A DNA stretch of 45,707 nt, taken from a virus. The notes beneath the pieces are model-generated. The model did no database searches and was not told the DNA's origin. It worked only from the letters and a program-made list of their open reading frames with translations. Both the position numbers and the translations under genes were made by a program. Positions 2 to 39,627 of this stretch are shown piece by piece (the first letter of the stretch is position 1; every line of letters starts with the position of its first letter). The stretch is from positions 1-45,707 of IMG/VR virus record IMGVR_UViG_3300017917_003135. One strand, written 5' to 3'.

Positions 2-298
2 GTTTCTGTAACATTATCATTTAATAAAGAAAATGAAACTAAATTTGTTGCTCCAGCATTACAAATGTATGAAGGACAACTTAAGGCAGTATCTTTCTTA
101 CCTATGGGCAATGAGGTTTATCCACAACAACCATATAACGAAATAAGTAAAGAAGAGTATGAATCTTATGTTGGTAAAATTGCAAAGATTGATTGGTCTG
201 CAATTTATGATGGAGTGGATAATTTAGAGGCTCAAGGAGAGATGTATTGCACTACAGATTATTGTGAAATTAAAACAGTAAAGGAAAATAGCAAATGA
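2..298 (+). CDS. nrdJ: Class II (adenosylcobalamin-dependent) ribonucleotide reductase, C-terminal fragment
   Basis: The reading frame is open to the window's left edge, so only about the last 98 residues are present. An internal ATG at 65 is not taken as the start because the frame continues upstream. The enzyme would reduce ribonucleotides to deoxyribonucleotides in the cytoplasm. The tail reads IDWSAIYDG, then EAQGEMYCTTDYCEIK. The two cysteines spaced CxxxxC near the C-terminus (codons 248-250 and 263-265) match the thioredoxin-reducible pair of monomeric B12-dependent reductases. The Pro/Tyr/Glu-rich stretch before them is also typical. The stop overlaps the next start as ATGA at 295-298. 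A cobalamin adenosyltransferase three genes downstream supports the class II call. The catalytic barrel lies outside the window, so the class rests on the tail motif and context. Confidence 0.72.
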   Translation, partial: VSVTLSFNKENETKFVAPALQMYEGQLKAVSFLPMGNEVYPQQPYNEISKEEYESYVGKIAKIDWSAIYDGVDNLEAQGEMYCTTDYCEIKTVKENSK

Positions 299-747
299 AA
301 AGAATATTGATATCAGCAGCATTTTTTTTATTAGTTTTTGCTGGTTTACAAAGTATAACTAAATCAAATAGTGATTGTGTTAATCTTTATATTGATTATA
401 GTGTCTTAAATAATCAAACAAAAATAACAAAATGTATAGAAGCGTCTAAAGATACAACCGCATTAGATATTTTAAGAAAGGCTAATCTTAAGATAGAAGG
501 AACTAAAAAATATGGACTTGGCGTAGTTTGTAGAGTTAATGGATTACCAAATAAAACTATGGAGTCATGTGAAACAATGCCCCCAGCAGAGGCATATTGG
601 GCAATCATAATTAAAGAAAAACAAAAAGTTCCATTTCCAATTAATGAATGGGGCTGGGGTCAATTAGCAGTTGATCAGCAGTTATTGAATCCAGGAGATT
701 CTATTGGGTTGGTATGGGCTAATAATGGAAAGGTTATATTTCCATGA
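295..747 (+). CDS. Transcobalamin-like (DUF4430) membrane-anchored protein, putative cobalamin binder
   Basis: This 150-residue protein begins with Lys-Arg and a hydrophobic stretch (residues 4-21), read as a signal peptide or N-terminal membrane anchor. There is no lipobox cysteine. The rest should lie outside the membrane. Its pattern, TALDILRKAN, then YGLGVVCRVNGLP, then PPAEAYWAIII, then WGWGQLAV and GDSIGLVW, resembles the DUF4430 / transcobalamin C-terminal-like fold found in bacterial proteins near vitamin B12 uptake genes. Cys53 and Cys60-range cysteines recur through the domain and could form disulfides, which fits export. It overlaps the reductase by ATGA and the next gene by ATGA, implying translational coupling. 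The inferred role is to capture cobalamin at the host surface for the reductase. No binding residue can be assigned from sequence alone. The fold is fairly likely, the ligand is inference. Confidence 0.6.
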   Translation: MKRILISAAFFLLVFAGLQSITKSNSDCVNLYIDYSVLNNQTKITKCIEASKDTTALDILRKANLKIEGTKKYGLGVVCRVNGLPNKTMESCETMPPAEAYWAIIIKEKQKVPFPINEWGWGQLAVDQQLLNPGDSIGLVWANNGKVIFP

Positions 748-908
748 AACTAGCATATAAAACTTTTGATAATGTTATAGAGTTTCCATTAAAAAAACGT
801 AAACCTACAACCATAGAATATATATTTCAATTAATTATAAATCTGTCTGCACTTTATTTAGCCAATAAAATTACAATTGATATTTGGCGTTCTTTGACGG
901 GACACTAA
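744..908 (+). CDS. 54-residue putative single-pass membrane peptide in the cobalamin cluster
   Basis: The peptide starts at the ATG overlapping the previous stop (ATGA, 744-747). It ends in a TAA whose last base is the first base of the adenosyltransferase ATG (TAATG). It has a basic stretch KKRK at residues 17-20 followed by a hydrophobic or amphipathic segment of about 25 residues (IEYIFQLIINLSALYLANK). This suggests an inner-membrane helix with a cytoplasmic N-terminus. I do not recognise a family. The exact double overlap argues that it is a real gene. Its place between a putative surface cobalamin binder and a cobalamin-modifying enzyme makes a role in membrane passage or tethering imaginable, but nothing in the peptide shows this. 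Confidence 0.6.
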   Translation: MKLAYKTFDNVIEFPLKKRKPTTIEYIFQLIINLSALYLANKITIDIWRSLTGH

Positions 909-1402
909 TGGTTCATCTGACTCGTATATATACAAAAACTGGTGATGATGGAAAAACTTCTACCGCTACAAATGAAAGAATAGATAAGAGTAGTGCTTTA
1001 ATTGAAGCAATTGGTGCAGTAGATGAAGCCAACTCTGCTATTGGAATGGCAACAGAATATCATAATGACATTATAGATAGAATACAAAGTGATTTGTTCG
1101 ATCTTGGAGCAGAACTTTCTGGTGCCCCGACAATAACCATATCTGAAGAAAGAATTACATATTTAGAAAATATTATTGATGACTATAATGAATTTTTAGA
1201 ACCACTACATTCTTTTGTTCTGCCTACAGGTCCTCTTCATAATGCAAGAACAATAGTTAGAAGAGCAGAACGTGAGGTTTGGAAAATTGATAATATAAAT
1301 ATAAATATTCCAAAATATTTAAATAGACTTTCAGATTTATTATTTGTTATGGCAAGATATCATAACAAAGGTAACGAAAAGTTATGGATTCCTAAAAATT
1401 AA
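908..1402 (+). CDS. pduO: PduO-type ATP:cob(I)alamin adenosyltransferase
   Basis: The 164-residue product transfers the adenosyl group of ATP to reduced cobalamin, making adenosylcobalamin, the coenzyme of class II ribonucleotide reductase. Family motifs appear in order: the N-terminal ATP-binding loop YTKTGDDGKTS (residues 8-18), the helix EAIGAVDEANSAIG (33-46), the segment PTGPLHNARTIVRRAER (106-122), and YLNRLSDLLFVMAR (137-150). Length is slightly short of the roughly 180-200 usual for the family, but all core helices are present. The ATG at 908 is chosen over an in-frame ATG at 884 because it overlaps the preceding stop as TAATG and places MVHLTRIYTKTGDDG at the family's usual N-terminus. 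It is the most secure member of the cobalamin cluster. Confidence 0.9.
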   Translation: MVHLTRIYTKTGDDGKTSTATNERIDKSSALIEAIGAVDEANSAIGMATEYHNDIIDRIQSDLFDLGAELSGAPTITISEERITYLENIIDDYNEFLEPLHSFVLPTGPLHNARTIVRRAEREVWKIDNININIPKYLNRLSDLLFVMARYHNKGNEKLWIPKN

Positions 1403-1419: not shown

Positions 1420-2019
1420 GTGAGTTATCAAATAATTAATATTGCAACTAAAGAAGATTTAGAGTTAATTGAAAATTTTATTAATTCTGTAAAATTTAAC
1501 ACTAAGGAAGATCACATTCCGCTTCATGATCCACTTTTTAATCAAGAACAAATTAACTTTGATATTACAACATATGGAGATATGCCAAGAGAGGTAGTAG
1601 AAATATTTGAAAAATATGTTTATGCTATTCAAAGTGCTGTAAGTAAAACAACAAAAATATTTTATGATCCACCAATCCTAGGAAAAAGTTATATTGCAAA
1701 ATATTCTGTGGGTTCTGGTGTTTTAATGCATTTTAACTCTGACAGGCCAAAAAATGTTTATAGGTCAATAGTTCAATGGACAAATAATCATAAAGGCGGA
1801 ATTTTTAAGTTTGATAACTATAAAATTGGTAAAAATTTAGTAGCAGGAGACTGTATTATTTTTCCAGAAACAGAAGAGTTTCAAAGAGAGATTACGCCAA
1901 TAGAAGAGGGTAGTTTGTTTATATCAGATTTTTGGAATGCCCCAGTTGGACAATCTCCATATCCAGGTTTAAATTATAACGAAATCTATTGGGGAAATCC
2001 TCTTTGGGAAAATCGTTAA
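1420..2019 (+). CDS. 2-oxoglutarate/Fe(II) oxygenase-like protein with degenerate metal site
   Basis: This 199-residue protein has a GTG start with a GGAGAAAG Shine-Dalgarno sequence at 1408-1415. The layout is that of prolyl-4-hydroxylase-like double-stranded beta-helix enzymes: IAKYSVGSGVLMHF, then GGIFKF, then AGDCIIFPETEEFQREITPIEEG. In active members the iron ligands are HxD and a distal His. Here the first site is His104-Phe-Asn106 (an Asp follows at 108), and the distal His position is Arg156. The Arg that usually binds 2-oxoglutarate shortly afterwards is also not evident. The likely reading is a structural or catalytically dead member, or one with altered ligands. It sits between the cobalamin cluster and a tail protein gene, which does not fix its role. 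The active oxygenase-like proteins at 37347-39627 belong to a different subgroup. Confidence 0.55.
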   Translation: MSYQIINIATKEDLELIENFINSVKFNTKEDHIPLHDPLFNQEQINFDITTYGDMPREVVEIFEKYVYAIQSAVSKTTKIFYDPPILGKSYIAKYSVGSGVLMHFNSDRPKNVYRSIVQWTNNHKGGIFKFDNYKIGKNLVAGDCIIFPETEEFQREITPIEEGSLFISDFWNAPVGQSPYPGLNYNEIYWGNPLWENR

Positions 2020-5648: not shown

Positions 5649-6053
5649 ATGAGGCCTAATAAAAACAAAAAAAATGGTAAACAACTGCCCAAAATGAAGG
5701 GGCAAGTCGGAGAATCTCGTATAAAGGTAATAGAAAAGAACTATAACTGGGGATTATATGTATATAAAAAATCTAATGGTAAATGGTTTACAGACGGAAA
5801 CGGGTCAGTATTAAATATTCCTTCAATGAAAGGTGATATTAGTAAAATTTCAGAATTAACGCAAGCAGCAAAATATTATGGCGATCCTGGAGATGGGCAT
5901 TGCGTATTTGTCCCTGGATTAAATAGAGTATCAGAAGAAGAATACTCAGAACAAAAAGATAGAATGTCTCAAGGATTAATACCAAGCATGAATGACCTTG
6001 GCGCAGTTCATGCAGCACAGCAGACTGTTAAAAAATGGGGAGCAGAAGACTAA
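5649..6053 (+). CDS. Conserved-looking hypothetical protein upstream of portal
   Basis: The 134-residue protein is not recognised. It begins with a Lys/Asn-rich basic segment (PNKNKKNGKQ) and continues with a compact domain: NWGLYVYKKSNGKWFTDGNG (with an aromatic strand pattern), then VLNIPSMKGDISKISELTQAAKYYGDPGDGHCVF. The C-terminal half is helical and charged. The ATG at 5649 is preferred because it sits seven bases after the TATACT box. An alternative ATG at 5643 adds two residues. Its stop overlaps the portal start (TAATG), so it is co-translated with head genes and may be a head or packaging accessory. That is positional inference only. Confidence 0.6.
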   Translation: MRPNKNKKNGKQLPKMKGQVGESRIKVIEKNYNWGLYVYKKSNGKWFTDGNGSVLNIPSMKGDISKISELTQAAKYYGDPGDGHCVFVPGLNRVSEEEYSEQKDRMSQGLIPSMNDLGAVHAAQQTVKKWGAED

Positions 6054-7642
6054 TGAGCGAAGAAAAAGAATACAGGGTTGGAGCAAGAATTGATGAATTG
6101 CAGGACACAGAAAGTCAATTTAAAAAAAGCGATCCATTTAATCAGACATGGGATGAATTAAAAAACTTATCTGGATTAGATAATAACTTTAAAAGACGTG
6201 CTGCGAGAATGTCAAAAGTTGAAGCCTCTCCAGCGTATATGAGTAATGCTAATGCAATTAACTCTGGAATTGATGGAGCCCAGTCAAAAGAAATAAATCC
6301 AGGAACTTTATATAGAAATGCCTACGGATTATTTGATGTTATTACCCCTCCATGGAACGTATATGAATTAGCAAATTACTATGACACTTCATTTGCAAAT
6401 CATGCAGCAATTGATGCTAAAGTAGAAAATATAGTTGGACTAGGATATAAATTTGAAATATCACCAAGAACAATGCTTAAATTAGAAGCATCGATAGATA
6501 GTGGTGCAACAGAAAGAGCACGTAAAAGAATTGAAAGATCAAAAATTGAATTAACTGATTGGTTAGAAAGTCTAAACAATGATGACTCATTTACTTCTAC
6601 GATGGAAAAGGTTTATACCGATGTTCAGGCTATTGGCAATGGATATTTAGAAATTGGAAGAACTGTAAGAGGAGAAATTGGCTACGTTGGACATATTCCA
6701 GCAACCACAATGCGTGTACGCCGTATGCGTGATGGATTTGTTCAAATTATTGCAAATAAAGTTGTTTATTTTAGAAATTTTGGAGCAAAGAATCAAAATC
6801 CAGTTACATCAGATAATAGACCAAATGAGATTATTCATTTTAAACAATATTCTCCATTAAACACTTTTTATGGAGTGCCAGACATTATTTCTGCAATTTC
6901 ATCACTACATGGAGATCAATTGGCCTCTCAATATAATATTGATTATTTTTCAAATAAGGCTGTACCAAGGTATGTCGTTACGCTTAAGGGCGCAAAGTTA
7001 TCTGCAGATGCTGAAGACAAGATGTTTAGATTTTTACAAACTAGCCTAAAAGGACAATCCCATAGAACATTGTATATTCCACTACCTGGAGATACAGATA
7101 GTAATAAGGTTGAGTTTAATATGGAGCCAATTGAAAACGGTATTCAAGATGGTTCATTTAAAGAGTATAGAAAACAAAATCGTGATGATATTTTAGTAGC
7201 GCATCAAGTTCCTTTGTCTAAATTAGGAGGATCTGACTCTTCTGCAATTGCTGCTGCTTTGGCACAAGATAGAACATTTAAAGAGCAGGTGGCCAGGCCA
7301 GCACAACGTCAACTTGAAAAAATGATTAATAAAATTATTCGTGAAAAAACAGATATCTTAGAATTTAAATTTAATGAACTTACATTAACAGATGAAATTG
7401 CTCAATCTCAAATATTAGAGAGATATGTAAAAACCCAAGTTATGCTTCCAAATGAAGCAAGACAGCAACTTGGTTTGCCACAGGTTTCTTATGGGGATGA
7501 ACCATTTCAATTAAAGCCACAGGATGCAGCAAGTCAGACAACAACAAGACAAAGAGATTCTGATAGATCCAATAATCAATCAGATAGTCCCGCAACTATA
7601 TCTGGAAGAAATCCAAAAGGAGAGGGCAGATCATCTCAATAA
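6053..7642 (+). CDS. Portal protein
   Basis: The 529-residue portal would form the dodecameric ring at one capsid vertex through which terminase pumps DNA and to which the tail joins. Family features include PPWNVYELANYYDTSFANHAAIDAKV near the N-terminus, the wing/stem region GNGYLEIGRTVRGEIGYVGHIPATTMRVRR, and IIHFKQYSPLNTFYGVPDIISAISSLHGDQ. A helical segment around FKEYRKQNRDDILVAHQVPLSKLGG leads into the crown. The C-terminus is Gln/Ser-rich and probably disordered. Length is normal for HK97/PBSX-type portals. The ATG at 6053 overlaps the preceding stop and is preferred to an upstream in-frame ATG at 6035. It is followed by protease, scaffold and capsid genes, the standard head order. Confidence 0.93.
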   Translation: MSEEKEYRVGARIDELQDTESQFKKSDPFNQTWDELKNLSGLDNNFKRRAARMSKVEASPAYMSNANAINSGIDGAQSKEINPGTLYRNAYGLFDVITPPWNVYELANYYDTSFANHAAIDAKVENIVGLGYKFEISPRTMLKLEASIDSGATERARKRIERSKIELTDWLESLNNDDSFTSTMEKVYTDVQAIGNGYLEIGRTVRGEIGYVGHIPATTMRVRRMRDGFVQIIANKVVYFRNFGAKNQNPVTSDNRPNEIIHFKQYSPLNTFYGVPDIISAISSLHGDQLASQYNIDYFSNKAVPRYVVTLKGAKLSADAEDKMFRFLQTSLKGQSHRTLYIPLPGDTDSNKVEFNMEPIENGIQDGSFKEYRKQNRDDILVAHQVPLSKLGGSDSSAIAAALAQDRTFKEQVARPAQRQLEKMINKIIREKTDILEFKFNELTLTDEIAQSQILERYVKTQVMLPNEARQQLGLPQVSYGDEPFQLKPQDAASQTTTRQRDSDRSNNQSDSPATISGRNPKGEGRSSQ

Positions 7643-7650
7643 ATGAGATG

Positions 7651-7679
7651 TTGTCAAAAATAGCCCTATAATATATACT
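7651..7679 (+). promoter_or_regulatory. Promoter candidate for protease/scaffold gene
   Basis: TTGTCA at 7651-7656 and TATACT at 7674-7679 are separated by exactly 17 bases, a near-consensus sigma70-type pair. A second TATAAT (7667-7672) overlaps the spacer and ends 10 bases before the ATG at 7683. No Shine-Dalgarno sequence precedes that ATG, suggesting a transcript that starts on or within a few bases of it. Confidence 0.5.
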
Positions 7680-7682
7680 AGT

Positions 7683-9017
7683 ATGACTATATCTAAAGCC
7701 CATTGGAATACAGAGGGCGAAGCACTTCGCCTTTCAATGCCTTTTAGTAAGGTAGATAAAGAGAGACGCACAGTCTCAGGTTTTGCCACACTTGATAACG
7801 TAGATAAACAAGATGATATTGTAACAACAGAGGCAAGTCTAAAAGCATTTAAAAAATTTCGTGGAAACATTCGTGAAATGCATCAACCATCTGCAGTAGG
7901 TAAAATGGTTTCATTTAAAGAAGATAAATATTATGATCAAGATTCAGAAAAAATGTATAGTGGAGTTTTAGTTTCTGCATACATTTCAAAAGGCGCACAA
8001 GATGCATGGGAAAAAGTTTTAGACGGAACATATACTGGTTTTTCAATTGGTGGAAGAATGAATAAATGGGACGATGCTTATGATGAAAAAATGGATAAGC
8101 AAATTAGAATTATTAAAGATTATGATTTAGTTGAATTGTCATTAGTTGATAGTCCAGCAAATCAATTTGCAAATATTGTTTCGGTAGAAAAGGTTGATGG
8201 TATTGATGTTATTAAAGGTATGGACACAGTTATTGAAAATGTTTTTTGGGATAAAGAAACTGGAATTGTAATGGTTTCAGAGAACGAATCAGAAGTTAGC
8301 CCAACTAATGGAAATCAAATGCAAAATATAGGTTTCGTTGAAAAAACAGACAACGAGAAAACAAGCATGATCAAATTCTTAGTGGAAAGTGCTAAAGGCA
8401 CCAATACTTCTAAGATACAAAAGGAGGCAAATCCTATGGCAAAATCAACAAAAAATACAACAGCAGAAATCGTTGAGAAGACTGATGTTGTTGTTGAAGA
8501 TGTTCAGGTCGCTCCACAGGCAGAAGCCACAGTCGAAACTGCTGAAGTTACAAAATCAGAAGAAATTGTAGCAGAGGCAATTCCAGCAAACGATCAAACT
8601 ATTACAACAGAAGTTGCTAAAACTGAAGAAGTTAAAGCAGATGAAGTTGTTAAGTCTGAGACCGTGGCAGAGGAAGTAAAGACTGAAGAGGTATCTAAGT
8701 CTGACGAAGTAATTGCAGATGCAGTTACAGAAATCAAAAACACTCTTACATCAGCCTTTAGCGATCTAGTTGCAACCGTTAAGTCTCTACAAGAGCAGGT
8801 AAATGCAATAACAAAATCTGTTGATGCAGTTTCACAAGAAGTTACTGCAGCAAAAGATGAATTTAATGAGTTTGGAAAGCGTGTTGACGCAGTAGAAGCA
8901 GATACAGCATTCCGAAAGTCTGGAGATCTCGGCGAGATTATTCAGGAACAACCAGCAATGGTTGAAAAATCCCTATGGGGCGGTCGTTTCCTCAAAACAG
9001 CCGACTTATTTCGATAA
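7683..9017 (+). CDS. Prohead protease fused in frame to scaffold
   Basis: The 444-residue protein has two parts. Residues 1 to about 170 form a U35/XkdF-like prohead protease: VSGFATLDNVDKQDDIV, His67 in REMHQPS, Ser121 in GFSIGG, then DYDLVELSLVDSPANQFANI. His67 and Ser121 are the probable catalytic pair, with an acidic residue near 151-156. This enzyme cuts scaffold and capsid N-termini during head maturation. From about residue 252 the chain becomes Glu/Lys/Val/Ala-rich with repeated VxKSEEV-type units, then a coiled coil (about residues 345-410), as expected of a scaffold. A strong internal ribosome site makes the scaffold part available separately (see 8436-9017). The frame ends just before the major capsid gene. 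Confidence 0.88.
   Translation: MTISKAHWNTEGEALRLSMPFSKVDKERRTVSGFATLDNVDKQDDIVTTEASLKAFKKFRGNIREMHQPSAVGKMVSFKEDKYYDQDSEKMYSGVLVSAYISKGAQDAWEKVLDGTYTGFSIGGRMNKWDDAYDEKMDKQIRIIKDYDLVELSLVDSPANQFANIVSVEKVDGIDVIKGMDTVIENVFWDKETGIVMVSENESEVSPTNGNQMQNIGFVEKTDNEKTSMIKFLVESAKGTNTSKIQKEANPMAKSTKNTTAEIVEKTDVVVEDVQVAPQAEATVETAEVTKSEEIVAEAIPANDQTITTEVAKTEEVKADEVVKSETVAEEVKTEEVSKSDEVIADAVTEIKNTLTSAFSDLVATVKSLQEQVNAITKSVDAVSQEVTAAKDEFNEFGKRVDAVEADTAFRKSGDLGEIIQEQPAMVEKSLWGGRFLKTADLFR
8421..8427 (+). promoter_or_regulatory. Internal Shine-Dalgarno site for nested scaffold
   Basis: AAGGAGG lies inside the protease/scaffold gene, eight bases before an in-frame ATG at 8436. It is among the strongest ribosome sites in the window, whereas the parent gene's own start has none. 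This fits abundant scaffold production from a second start. Confidence 0.75.
8436..9017 (+). CDS. Nested capsid scaffolding protein (internal in-frame start)
   Basis: Starting at Met252 of the protease frame (MAKSTKNTTAEIVEK), this would yield a 193-residue acidic, helical protein. The first part holds irregular repeats of Lys-Ser/Thr-Glu-Glu-Val (TKSEEIVAEA, AKTEEVKADEV, VKSETVAEEV, VKTEEVSKSDEV). The second part is a coiled coil with heptad-like hydrophobics (IKNTLTSAFSDLVATVKSLQEQV). The arrangement matches known overlapping protease/scaffold pairs such as lambda C/Nu3, where one message gives a little protease-scaffold and much free scaffold. The start call rests on the AAGGAGG sequence and the change in composition exactly there. 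Confidence 0.72.
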   Translation: MAKSTKNTTAEIVEKTDVVVEDVQVAPQAEATVETAEVTKSEEIVAEAIPANDQTITTEVAKTEEVKADEVVKSETVAEEVKTEEVSKSDEVIADAVTEIKNTLTSAFSDLVATVKSLQEQVNAITKSVDAVSQEVTAAKDEFNEFGKRVDAVEADTAFRKSGDLGEIIQEQPAMVEKSLWGGRFLKTADLFR

Positions 9018-37346: not shown

Positions 37347-38672
37347 ATGAATAATTTTCCAGAATTAAAAAATTTACCTAAATATAAGGCATTAAGAAAT
37401 AGTCAGCCTGAAATACATGATCAAAACTTTATCCCAAAAATTTCTAGTAATATTTTAACTAAAAAACAAATAGATTATTTATACTCAATGATAAATGCAT
37501 ACCCGAAAGAACAAATAAGAGTTCAAAAATGGGGAGGTCAAGGTTGTTATGATAATATTTTAATTCCAAACGACATTAAAGAAACAATTTTATTAGAAGC
37601 AAATAAAATGTCTAAAGAAGAACTAGAAATAGAACAAATATCTTTAATTCGATATTCTCCAGAGTTTGGATATGATGTTAAATTGTTTCCACATTATGAC
37701 ACAAGACCATGTGAAATGTTTGTCTTTGACTTACAATTAAAAGCAAATGAAGAATGGGGAATTTTTATTGAAGGAGAAAAATATAATTTAAAAGATAATC
37801 AAGCAATATTATTCTCTGGAACACAACAAATGCATTGGAGAGAAAATAAAAAACTATCTCCAAATGCACAAATTGATATGATTTTTGTATGGCTATCTCA
37901 TAAAGAAAAAAAAGCATTATCTAACAGCCATTCAGTAATAATGAAAAATAGAGAAATGGTTTTATTGGACGAAACTAAAATCTCTAACATGGAGATTCCA
38001 TATAGCATTGATGTAAGAAAAGGACTAATGAAAAATTCTGTATGCAAAAATATTTTTACAGATAAAGAAATAAAAGATATATATAGTTTAATTGACTATA
38101 ATCAAACAGAAAACACTACAGTAGTTTCAATTTATGCTCAAAAGGCCTGGTTTACACAATTCCCAGAAAATATTTTACAAAAGGTTACTAGTATTGCAGA
38201 AAATGAATACAATGAAAAGTTGACGCTAGAGGGTATATCTTTTGCAAGATATTCTAAAGATTATGGAAATCGTCCAAACCTAACACCACACTACGATAAT
38301 ACTTTTATTGAACAACGATTGACGCTTGACATTCAATTAAGAGCAAATATAAAATGGCCAATTGTTGTTGAAGATCAAGTTTTTATTTTACAAAATAATG
38401 AAGGGTTAACATTTTCTGGAACACACCAAATACATTGGAGAGAGCCGATAGAGTTTGAGGATGATCATTTTGTAGAAATGTTATTTTGTCATTTTTCTTT
38501 AAAAAATAAAAAACCAATATCTTTGCAAGAAAAGGTTCAGATAGAAGGAAAAATGTCTTTATATTCTAATAAATATTCTGTAAAATTAATGGATACAATT
38601 TCTCAATATAAAAACCTTATTGGCTGGCTAAAAAAAATGACAGATAAACTTAGCGAAAGCGATAGTCACTAA
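37347..38672 (+). CDS. Tandem 2-oxoglutarate/Fe(II) oxygenase-like protein
   Basis: The 441-residue protein consists of two homologous halves. Each carries the double-stranded beta-helix iron triad. Half one has His116-Tyr-Asp118 (FPHYDTRP) and His163 (MHWRE). Half two has His315-Tyr-Asp317 (TPHYDNTF) and His363 (IHWRE). The HxD-to-His spacing is 45-46 residues in both. Around them are FDLQLKANEEWGIFIEG / LDIQLRANIKWPIVVED and ILFSGTQQ / TFSGTHQ. Substrates of such phage oxygenases (protein side chains, nucleotides or small metabolites) cannot be read from sequence. The single-domain relative at 38971 is a third copy. The start is set by the TATAAT box six bases upstream. Confidence 0.75.
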   Translation: MNNFPELKNLPKYKALRNSQPEIHDQNFIPKISSNILTKKQIDYLYSMINAYPKEQIRVQKWGGQGCYDNILIPNDIKETILLEANKMSKEELEIEQISLIRYSPEFGYDVKLFPHYDTRPCEMFVFDLQLKANEEWGIFIEGEKYNLKDNQAILFSGTQQMHWRENKKLSPNAQIDMIFVWLSHKEKKALSNSHSVIMKNREMVLLDETKISNMEIPYSIDVRKGLMKNSVCKNIFTDKEIKDIYSLIDYNQTENTTVVSIYAQKAWFTQFPENILQKVTSIAENEYNEKLTLEGISFARYSKDYGNRPNLTPHYDNTFIEQRLTLDIQLRANIKWPIVVEDQVFILQNNEGLTFSGTHQIHWREPIEFEDDHFVEMLFCHFSLKNKKPISLQEKVQIEGKMSLYSNKYSVKLMDTISQYKNLIGWLKKMTDKLSESDSH

Positions 38673-38963
38673 ATGAGTGAAAAATCAGAAATAAAAAAAA
38701 TAAAAGCAAAAGCACATAAAAACTCTGGGCGTGGAAATAAAAAAGGAGACGCTACTTGGGGAGATTTTGTTATTGATATTAAAGAGGCATCAAAATCTTT
38801 TGTTTTAAATGAAAAGGTTTGGAGTAAAATAACAACGGATGCAATAAGGTCTGGAATTGATAAATCTCCAGCGCTAGTAGTAGTACTTGGAACTGGCTCT
38901 AAAAAAGTAAGACTTTTTATTTCTGAATTTTCAGTAATTGAAGATATGATTGATGAGGTATAA
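38673..38963 (+). CDS. PDDEXK-like small nuclease, possible Holliday junction resolvase
   Basis: The 96-residue protein starts directly after the previous stop. It shows SGRGNKKGDATWGDFVIDIKEASKSFVLNEKVWSKITTDA, then SPALVVVLG and a final strand KVRLFIS. The order fits small PDDEXK nucleases: acidic Asp26, then Asp35-x-Lys37 on a strand, then a Ser/Trp helix and a PALVV strand. Related small phage proteins are thought to cut branched DNA. With RecA and a RuvC-like protein nearby, a resolvase or repair nuclease role is reasonable, though the Asp-x-Lys pairing is my reading of a short protein. Confidence 0.5.
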   Translation: MSEKSEIKKIKAKAHKNSGRGNKKGDATWGDFVIDIKEASKSFVLNEKVWSKITTDAIRSGIDKSPALVVVLGTGSKKVRLFISEFSVIEDMIDEV

Positions 38964-38964
38964 T
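38959..38964 (+). promoter_or_regulatory. -10 box, leaderless start for single-domain oxygenase
   Basis: TATAAT overlaps the end of the nuclease gene and stands six bases before the ATG at 38971, the same spacing as at 13992 and 37347. The nearest GAGG is 12 bases away and inside the promoter region. Confidence 0.5.
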
Positions 38965-38970
38965 AATAAT

Positions 38971-39627
38971 ATGAATACTAAAAGCGGGATATTTAAAACT
39001 TTTTTTACAAAAAAAGAAGAAGAAACTTTAAGGAATTTAATAGAAGAAAACCGAAAATTAGAAAGAGGCACTAGTCGTTTTGCCCCAATGATTATTAAAT
39101 CTATGTCTAGAGAGCAAATAGAATTTGTAGTTCCAGAAGATATTAAGCAAAAATTATTAGATCTTGCAAAGCAGTTTATAGATGATCCAGATTTAGAATT
39201 AACCCATTATCAATATTTAGATTATTATGGTAAATATGGAGAGGGAAATTCTCCTAACCTGCCACCACATTTAGATGTTGAAAATTATTATACTAAGGTA
39301 AGTATTGACTATCAAATGTCTAGTAATATAGACTGGGCAATTGTGGTTGAAAATGAAAAGTTTATATTAAAAGATAATGAAGTTTTGGTGTTTGAGGCTG
39401 GAGAAAGAATTCATTGGAGAGATCCAATTATTTTAAAAGAAAATGATAGATGTGAAGTTATTGTTTTTCATTTTTCCAATAAATTTGAGCATCAACCATA
39501 TGCTGAAAAACAAATGAGTAAAGAAGAAAGAAATCTAATTATTCAAAAACATAGTGATATGCCAAGAATGCAAAAATATAGAGAGCAATTTTTTAAACAA
39601 CTAGAAGAACTAAAAAAGGAAAAGTAA
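38971..39627 (+). CDS. Single-domain 2-oxoglutarate/Fe(II) oxygenase-like protein
   Basis: The 218-residue protein is a paralogue of the two halves at 37347-38672. Its triad is His100-Leu-Asp102 (PPHLDVEN) and His148 (IHWRDP), with 46 residues between, the same spacing as the tandem gene. SIDYQMSSNIDWAIVVENEKFILKDNEVLVF matches the strands of the other copies. Its C-terminus is a charged coiled helix (MQKYREQFFKQLEELKKEK). The ATG at 38971 is preferred over TTG or ATG starts at 38950-38953 that lie in the promoter. The stop overlaps the next ATG (TAATG). Confidence 0.72.
   Translation: MNTKSGIFKTFFTKKEEETLRNLIEENRKLERGTSRFAPMIIKSMSREQIEFVVPEDIKQKLLDLAKQFIDDPDLELTHYQYLDYYGKYGEGNSPNLPPHLDVENYYTKVSIDYQMSSNIDWAIVVENEKFILKDNEVLVFEAGERIHWRDPIILKENDRCEVIVFHFSNKFEHQPYAEKQMSKEERNLIIQKHSDMPRMQKYREQFFKQLEELKKEK

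Follow-up and report, generated by a model that had tools for sequence, protein, structure and literature searches.

Phages with a monomeric, adenosylcobalamin-dependent ribonucleotide reductase (RTPR or NrdJm) are well known, both in the virioplankton and in a Thermus virus, and the NrdJm of the Thermus virus, which is absent from its host, has been shown to need B12 (PMC6459318; PMC10547690). Such B12-dependent phage reductases are widespread, and the supply of their coenzyme has so far been left to the host. The locus described here resembles these systems in having a monomeric, B12-dependent phage reductase. It differs in what comes after: the papers on the virioplankton and Thermus virus enzymes mention no adenosyltransferase (PMC6459318; PMC10547690), whereas here genes predicted to capture and adenosylate the cofactor follow the reductase gene. 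In addition, the Thermus host makes B12 itself, unlike the host here, which is probably an auxotroph.

The genes of interest are in a 45.7-kb linear virus record that we analysed over its whole length (the window). Its left edge cuts through a gene, and its other genes include those for a portal, a protease, a helicase, a primase, SSB, a RuvC-like protein, and terminase. The four-gene locus consists of:

2..298, plus strand: C-terminus of the ribonucleotide reductase (RNR), 98 aa, RTPR-type (monomeric, NrdJm-like), with the 5' end off the contig
295..747, plus strand: G2, 150 aa, an N-terminal hydrophobic helix and a domain with the transcobalamin-beta fold (from a structure model)
744..908, plus strand: G3, a 54-aa membrane peptide with one hydrophobic stretch
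908..1402, plus strand: ACA, 164 aa, a PduO-type ATP:cob(I)alamin adenosyltransferase by homology

All four are open frames, present with their junctions where the first-pass annotation had placed them: ATGA at 295-298 (RNR and G2), ATGA at 744-747 (G2 and G3), and TAATG at 906-910 (G3 and ACA). Relatives almost always retain both the G2-G3 and the G3-ACA overlap, and their RNR-G2 junction is mostly a gap of 8-12 nt rather than the ATGA found in the window.

We think, with a probability of about 0.75, that the phage uses these genes as a cofactor-supply module, boosting the capture and adenosylation of B12 to feed its own class II RNR. G2 would be anchored in the cell membrane with its transcobalamin-beta-like domain outside the cytoplasm, where it would bind cobalamin and hand it to a host uptake route. 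Judging from their families, the phage ACA in the cytoplasm would move the adenosyl group of ATP onto reduced cobalamin to give adenosylcobalamin, and the adenosylcobalamin-dependent phage RNR would turn ribonucleotides into deoxyribonucleotides for phage DNA. G3 might act as a small membrane partner, perhaps of G2. We infer cobalamin binding, catalysis, co-expression, and a benefit during infection. That these genes form a cluster for B12 supply beside a class II RNR is well supported by the predicted identities of RNR and ACA, the modeled fold of G2, the riboswitches over cellular G2 genes, and repeated linkage. The first-pass annotation had proposed a self-contained pathway of capture, adenosylation, and use. 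The supply cluster stands, on homology, the fold of G2, and linkage. "Self-contained" does not: no permease is recognisable among the four genes, so B12 captured by G2 would need the host or another system to cross the membrane.

The assignment of the truncated first gene to an adenosylcobalamin-dependent, RTPR-type class II RNR is well supported by sequence comparison. Two profiles match the product of 2-298: phrog_367, ribonucleotide reductase (4.6e-14), and the C-terminal part of TIGR02505, RTPR (8.5e-6). The product ends in the redox pair YCTTDYC, the only one of the catalytic and redox sites of this enzyme that lies within the window. The first-pass annotation had named this gene a class II reductase and proposed extending the assembly leftward to the active site. 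The extension was made through relatives, in which the full-length RNR has about 680 aa and all catalytic and redox cysteines. One of them, L082, encodes a complete RNR of 681 aa (5959-8001) whose final 98 residues are those of the window at 97 of 98 positions. This protein matches PF21995, the B12-dependent RNR insertion domain (50.9 bits; cut-off 27), and PF17975, RNR_Alpha (112 bits; cut-off 26.4). Its TIGR02505 score of 337.4 bits, like the 340.0 of a second relative (L087), is just below the equivalog cut-off of 340.05. The sole solved relative found for it was 1l1l, the RTPR of L. leichmannii (E 1.7e-93), and the alignment retains positions C119, C408, E410, C419, C731, and C736. The motifs of the RNR are NCAMV, NPCAEQPL, YELCTL, and YCTTDYC. 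With these domains and the cysteines aligned to 1l1l, the sequence excludes, to the extent that a sequence can, that the first gene is something other than a class II reductase.

The product of 908-1402 is, with good support from homology, a PduO-type ATP:cobalamin adenosyltransferase. It matches Cob_adeno_trans, PF01923 (E 7e-47; 160 bits against a cut-off of 24), and TIGR00636, PduO_Nterm (150 bits against 108), both above cut-off, and it contains all four family motifs (TGDDG, F[VI]LP.G, AR..[AV]RR.ER, and NRLSD.LF), which bears out the strong adenosyltransferase motifs reported earlier. It has full-length homology to the PduO-type enzyme of M. tuberculosis (2g2d/6wgs), with which it aligns end to end (E 1e-32) and shares these motifs. 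It differs from PduO-type enzymes in being about 25 residues shorter, with shortened loops, and in lying on a long, phage-only branch. The nearest cellular relatives in a genome scan, at about 50% identity, came from Nanopelagicales and other freshwater actinobacteria. The host ACA gene adjoins murA and atpC, and not any G2 homolog, in the three such genomes inspected. The tree separates phage ACAs into a short type confined to phages and a type that resembles the host enzyme, and the window ACA sits in the short, phage-specific branch of the family. We do not claim two separate recruitments of ACA by phages, because the test of a single phage clade did not reject it (p-AU 0.29).

The transcobalamin-like nature of the 295-747 product was borne out at the level of fold, through a structure model and not through family models. 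No Pfam, NCBIfam, or PHROG model matched G2; Pfam DUF4430 (PF14478) matched neither the window G2 nor 24 family members at the gathering score; and profile searches of PDB sequences returned only noise. Two AlphaFold2 models, each built from 24 sequences (pLDDT 75 and 77), have an N-terminal helix and a beta-rich domain, in which the loop at residues 110-122 (PFPxxEWGW) is poorly modelled. The top Foldseek matches were the DUF4430 structure 3u7z and then transcobalamin chains. The best 15 structures by VIA-align were beta domains of transcobalamin, intrinsic factor, and haptocorrin, together with 3u7z, with Z of 9.2-10.1 for the first model and 10.2-12.1 for the second (2.5-2.9 Å over 91-99 residues); the next fold had Z of 6.1-6.5. 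The likeness to the mammalian proteins is thus one of beta-domain fold (Z up to 12) at about 17% identity. Mammalian transcobalamin also has an alpha/alpha-barrel that supplies part of the B12 site, whereas G2, at 150 aa, is a beta domain only, lacks the alpha6/alpha6 barrel, and is predicted to be membrane-anchored. The human beta domain alone has been crystallised with cyanocobalamin (5np4). In the alignment of phage and Nanopelagicales G2 proteins, C28, C47, C79, C92, D34, CR.N, YW, and W119 are invariant, and the four cysteines would suit an extracytoplasmic domain stabilised by disulphides. We propose, from the models, that G2 is a membrane-anchored, extracytoplasmic B12-capture protein.

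Because fold alone does not show function, we looked for cellular relatives of G2. Homologs were found in 10 of 251 genomes of the order Nanopelagicales (E 7e-40 to 4e-45) by direct profile search of host genomes, which recovered relatives missed by a stricter contig scan with the G2 alignment. In all ten (G014, G016, G022, G094, G095, G121, G154, G188, G190, and G196; loci L185-L194) a cobalamin riboswitch is directly upstream of the G2 homolog (Rfam: nine RF01482 and one RF00174). In four inspected Planktophila-like genomes without G2, the corresponding site, with an aldo/keto reductase gene on one side and gcvT on the other, also has a riboswitch, which in G002 and G005 scores under the Rfam gathering score. 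The operon that it heads encodes a secreted protein, EcfT, a double EcfA, and an S component; the secreted protein is of the SCO2322 family in the one classified (L220). On a plasmid of Streptomyces SAT1, a riboswitch is followed by the gene for a single protein that joins a G2-like beta domain to alpha/alpha-barrel repeats, and then by EcfT and an ATPase. An Arthrobacter plasmid carries a G2 homolog immediately before an EcfT-ATPase fusion. These riboswitch and ECF contexts tie the G2 family to B12 uptake by evidence that is independent of the fold, and they suggest that Nanopelagicales have a B12 uptake protein not recognised before. Of the parts of the module, G2 has the strongest support. 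Riboswitches are also present at the matches on an Embleya plasmid (L398).

The beta domain is what G2 has in common with the actinobacterial SCO2321/SCO2322-type and ECF operons of Streptomyces, Arthrobacter, and Planktophila. In actinobacteria, the cellular versions lie downstream of a cobalamin riboswitch or adjoin ECF genes, whereas the phage G2 has neither. No cobalamin riboswitch was found over the phage module at the Rfam gathering score in the window, L080, L087, L082, L006, or L044. Unlike the actinobacterial operons, the phage G2 is a stand-alone beta domain tied by gene order to RNR and ACA.

At L185-L194, a single riboswitch-controlled G2-like gene stands where related genomes have the whole ECF operon. 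The seven G2-bearing host genomes tested, which by our reading are Nanopelagicus-like, had neither the Planktophila ECF S component nor a FecCD/BtuC permease. The G2-bearing hosts may import B12 through another permease, or G2-type proteins may act by a route not described before. Since these hosts, with G2 under riboswitch control, show neither kind of permease component, G2 and G3 might by themselves suffice as a minimal system for B12 uptake, with no need of a classical ECF or BtuCD permease; the phage would then have taken over and compacted this host route and combined it with ACA to supply its own RNR. We consider this version speculative and on the whole unlikely.

G3 and its relatives are 44-54 aa long, have a single hydrophobic stretch, and end in WRSLTGH with almost no variation. 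A search of 12 host genomes gave no convincing homolog. Synonymous codon changes, including CGT/AGA, ruled out that the sequence for the C-terminus is merely a ribosome-binding signal for ACA; conservation is at the protein level (dN/dS 0.23). The tie of G3 to B12 is looser than that of its neighbours, because G3 occurs once (L325) behind an RNR without G2 or ACA. In that locus (L325:5986-6560), the WRSLTGH-ended G3 is followed by what looks by eye like a putative S-adenosylmethionine decarboxylase-like protein.

The host is probably a member of the Nanopelagicales, abundant freshwater actinobacteria, because the nearest cellular homologs of ACA and G2 are in this order and the phages nearest to the RNR infect actinobacteria. 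The nearest named phages by RNR are DSL-LC01, from a Chinese lake (60.6%), and Mycobacterium phage Gaia (61%), neither of which has G2 or ACA beside its RNR. Hosts examined carry one ACA and a PRK06556-type B12-dependent RNR, usually the sole large subunit found. A second RNR (class Ib) was present in one of seven hosts scanned for RNR genes. In that genome, G022, which also has the class II reductase, a cobalamin riboswitch (L226; G022:C1:253663-253811) precedes the class Ib nrdHIEF operon. None of 12 host genomes had the corrin-ring gene CbiC, and a published metabolic reconstruction (PMC5574706) predicted that acI-B is auxotrophic for adenosylcobalamin and that acI-A has a putative cobalamin transporter. 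The missing CbiC and the predicted acI-B auxotrophy suggest that B12 is short in the host. In such a host, coenzyme supply could limit a phage whose heavy demand for dNTPs is served by a B12-dependent enzyme.

The four-gene arrangement recurs across many sequences from freshwater phages. In IMG/VR, relatives of ACA occur on at least 238 contigs and relatives of G2 on at least 135; we read the best 80 of each, so that the counts are biased to close relatives. Among the loci read, the order RNR-G2-G3-ACA, which the first-pass annotation had suggested looking for in viral contigs, was present in 59 distinct viral sequences, and most of the incomplete loci are cut by a contig end. Median dN/dS among relatives was 0.29 for G2, 0.23 for G3, and about 0.06 for ACA, which is under the strongest purifying selection of the added genes. 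Purifying selection acts on all three. The shared order in 59 sequences and the low dN/dS argue that the arrangement is not due to chance. The module, in the order G2-G3-ACA, is found behind three RNR lineages: the window type, a second at 62% identity, and, at 28%, a third (L304/L305). Within the second lineage, most phage RTPRs go without it. Its presence behind several RNRs indicates an add-on to several phage reductases and not a relic of one genome. The parts of the module are not obligatorily linked, because some loci carry them separately: ACA without G2 or RNR nearby (L070 and L076-L079), G2-G3-ACA without RNR in a 46-kb record (L080), and RNR-G2-G3 without ACA (L270, L275, and L277).

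The loci with ACA or G2-G3-ACA and no neighbouring RNR (L070 and L076-L080), and the class II RNR that the hosts have of their own, would also fit a module that raises adenosylcobalamin for host B12 enzymes, the host NrdJ and possibly others via uptake, with a place beside the phage RNR that is merely convenient. However, 59 distinct sequences and three RNR lineages have the module directly behind the RNR, and the phage RNR is only distantly related to the class II enzyme of the host, so the phage brings its own consumer. We regard supply to host enzymes as quite improbable.

Phages encode decoys of surface proteins, and G2 is predicted to be membrane-anchored and resembles host uptake proteins. 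It might therefore occupy or mask a B12-uptake component of the host and cause superinfection exclusion, with ACA as an unrelated passenger. The recurrent linkage of G2 with ACA and an adenosylcobalamin-dependent RNR, and the conservation of the residues common to G2 and its cellular homologs, make this very unlikely. Least probable of all is that ACA raises adenosylcobalamin to silence host genes under riboswitch control, among them the class Ib RNR operon of one host, and so gives the phage control of dNTPs: the host riboswitches do match the adenosylcobalamin family RF01482 and one precedes nrdHIEF in G022, but only one of the seven hosts scanned has a second RNR, and the same signal would repress the host G2/ECF operon and cut B12 uptake.

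Under the cofactor-supply reading, what is new is a phage auxiliary module that would add the capture and activation of a cofactor to a known phage enzyme, the RNR itself being known. A virus would here encode the means both to capture a vitamin cofactor and to activate it for use by its own replication enzyme, in a host that is probably among the most abundant freshwater bacteria and dependent on imported B12. This reading leads to a testable claim, that phage replication may be limited by a vitamin. The earlier remark that no described phage system combines all of these parts agrees with our searches of 50,697 phage records and of the searchable papers in PubMed Central. G2 was absent from those records. 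ACA had 15 matches among them, mostly unannotated, and these were set aside: the one inspected was a piece of bacterial chromosome with trpB and btuB. This record, CAKLQH020000002.1 (L408), is filed as an Acinetobacter phage; with its trpB, trpC, and btuB genes, it looks like bacterial chromosome that contaminates the phage collection. Within PubMed Central, a scope that leaves subscription journals and other preprints outside, we found no paper joining phage, cobalamin adenosyltransferase, and auxiliary metabolism, and some freshwater metagenome papers do not mention cobalamin.

Several features of the surrounding DNA vary. In L070, L076-L079, and L080, which are from a different phage group, ACA lies between RecA-like and Cas4-like genes and the fragment contains no reductase. 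In one locus, a gene that by eye encodes a WhiB-like regulator is inserted between RNR and G2 (L315:1558-1875). The gene after ACA in the window (1420-2019) is missing from many relatives that otherwise keep the module and appears to be a variable insert; its product has the PHROG label DNA endonuclease and the appearance of a putative 2-oxoglutarate oxygenase. Two more putative oxygenase-like proteins were recognised by eye at 37347-38672 and 38950-39627 of the window. The first of these apparently consists of two similar halves, and its PHROG label, ferrochelatase, looks doubtful.
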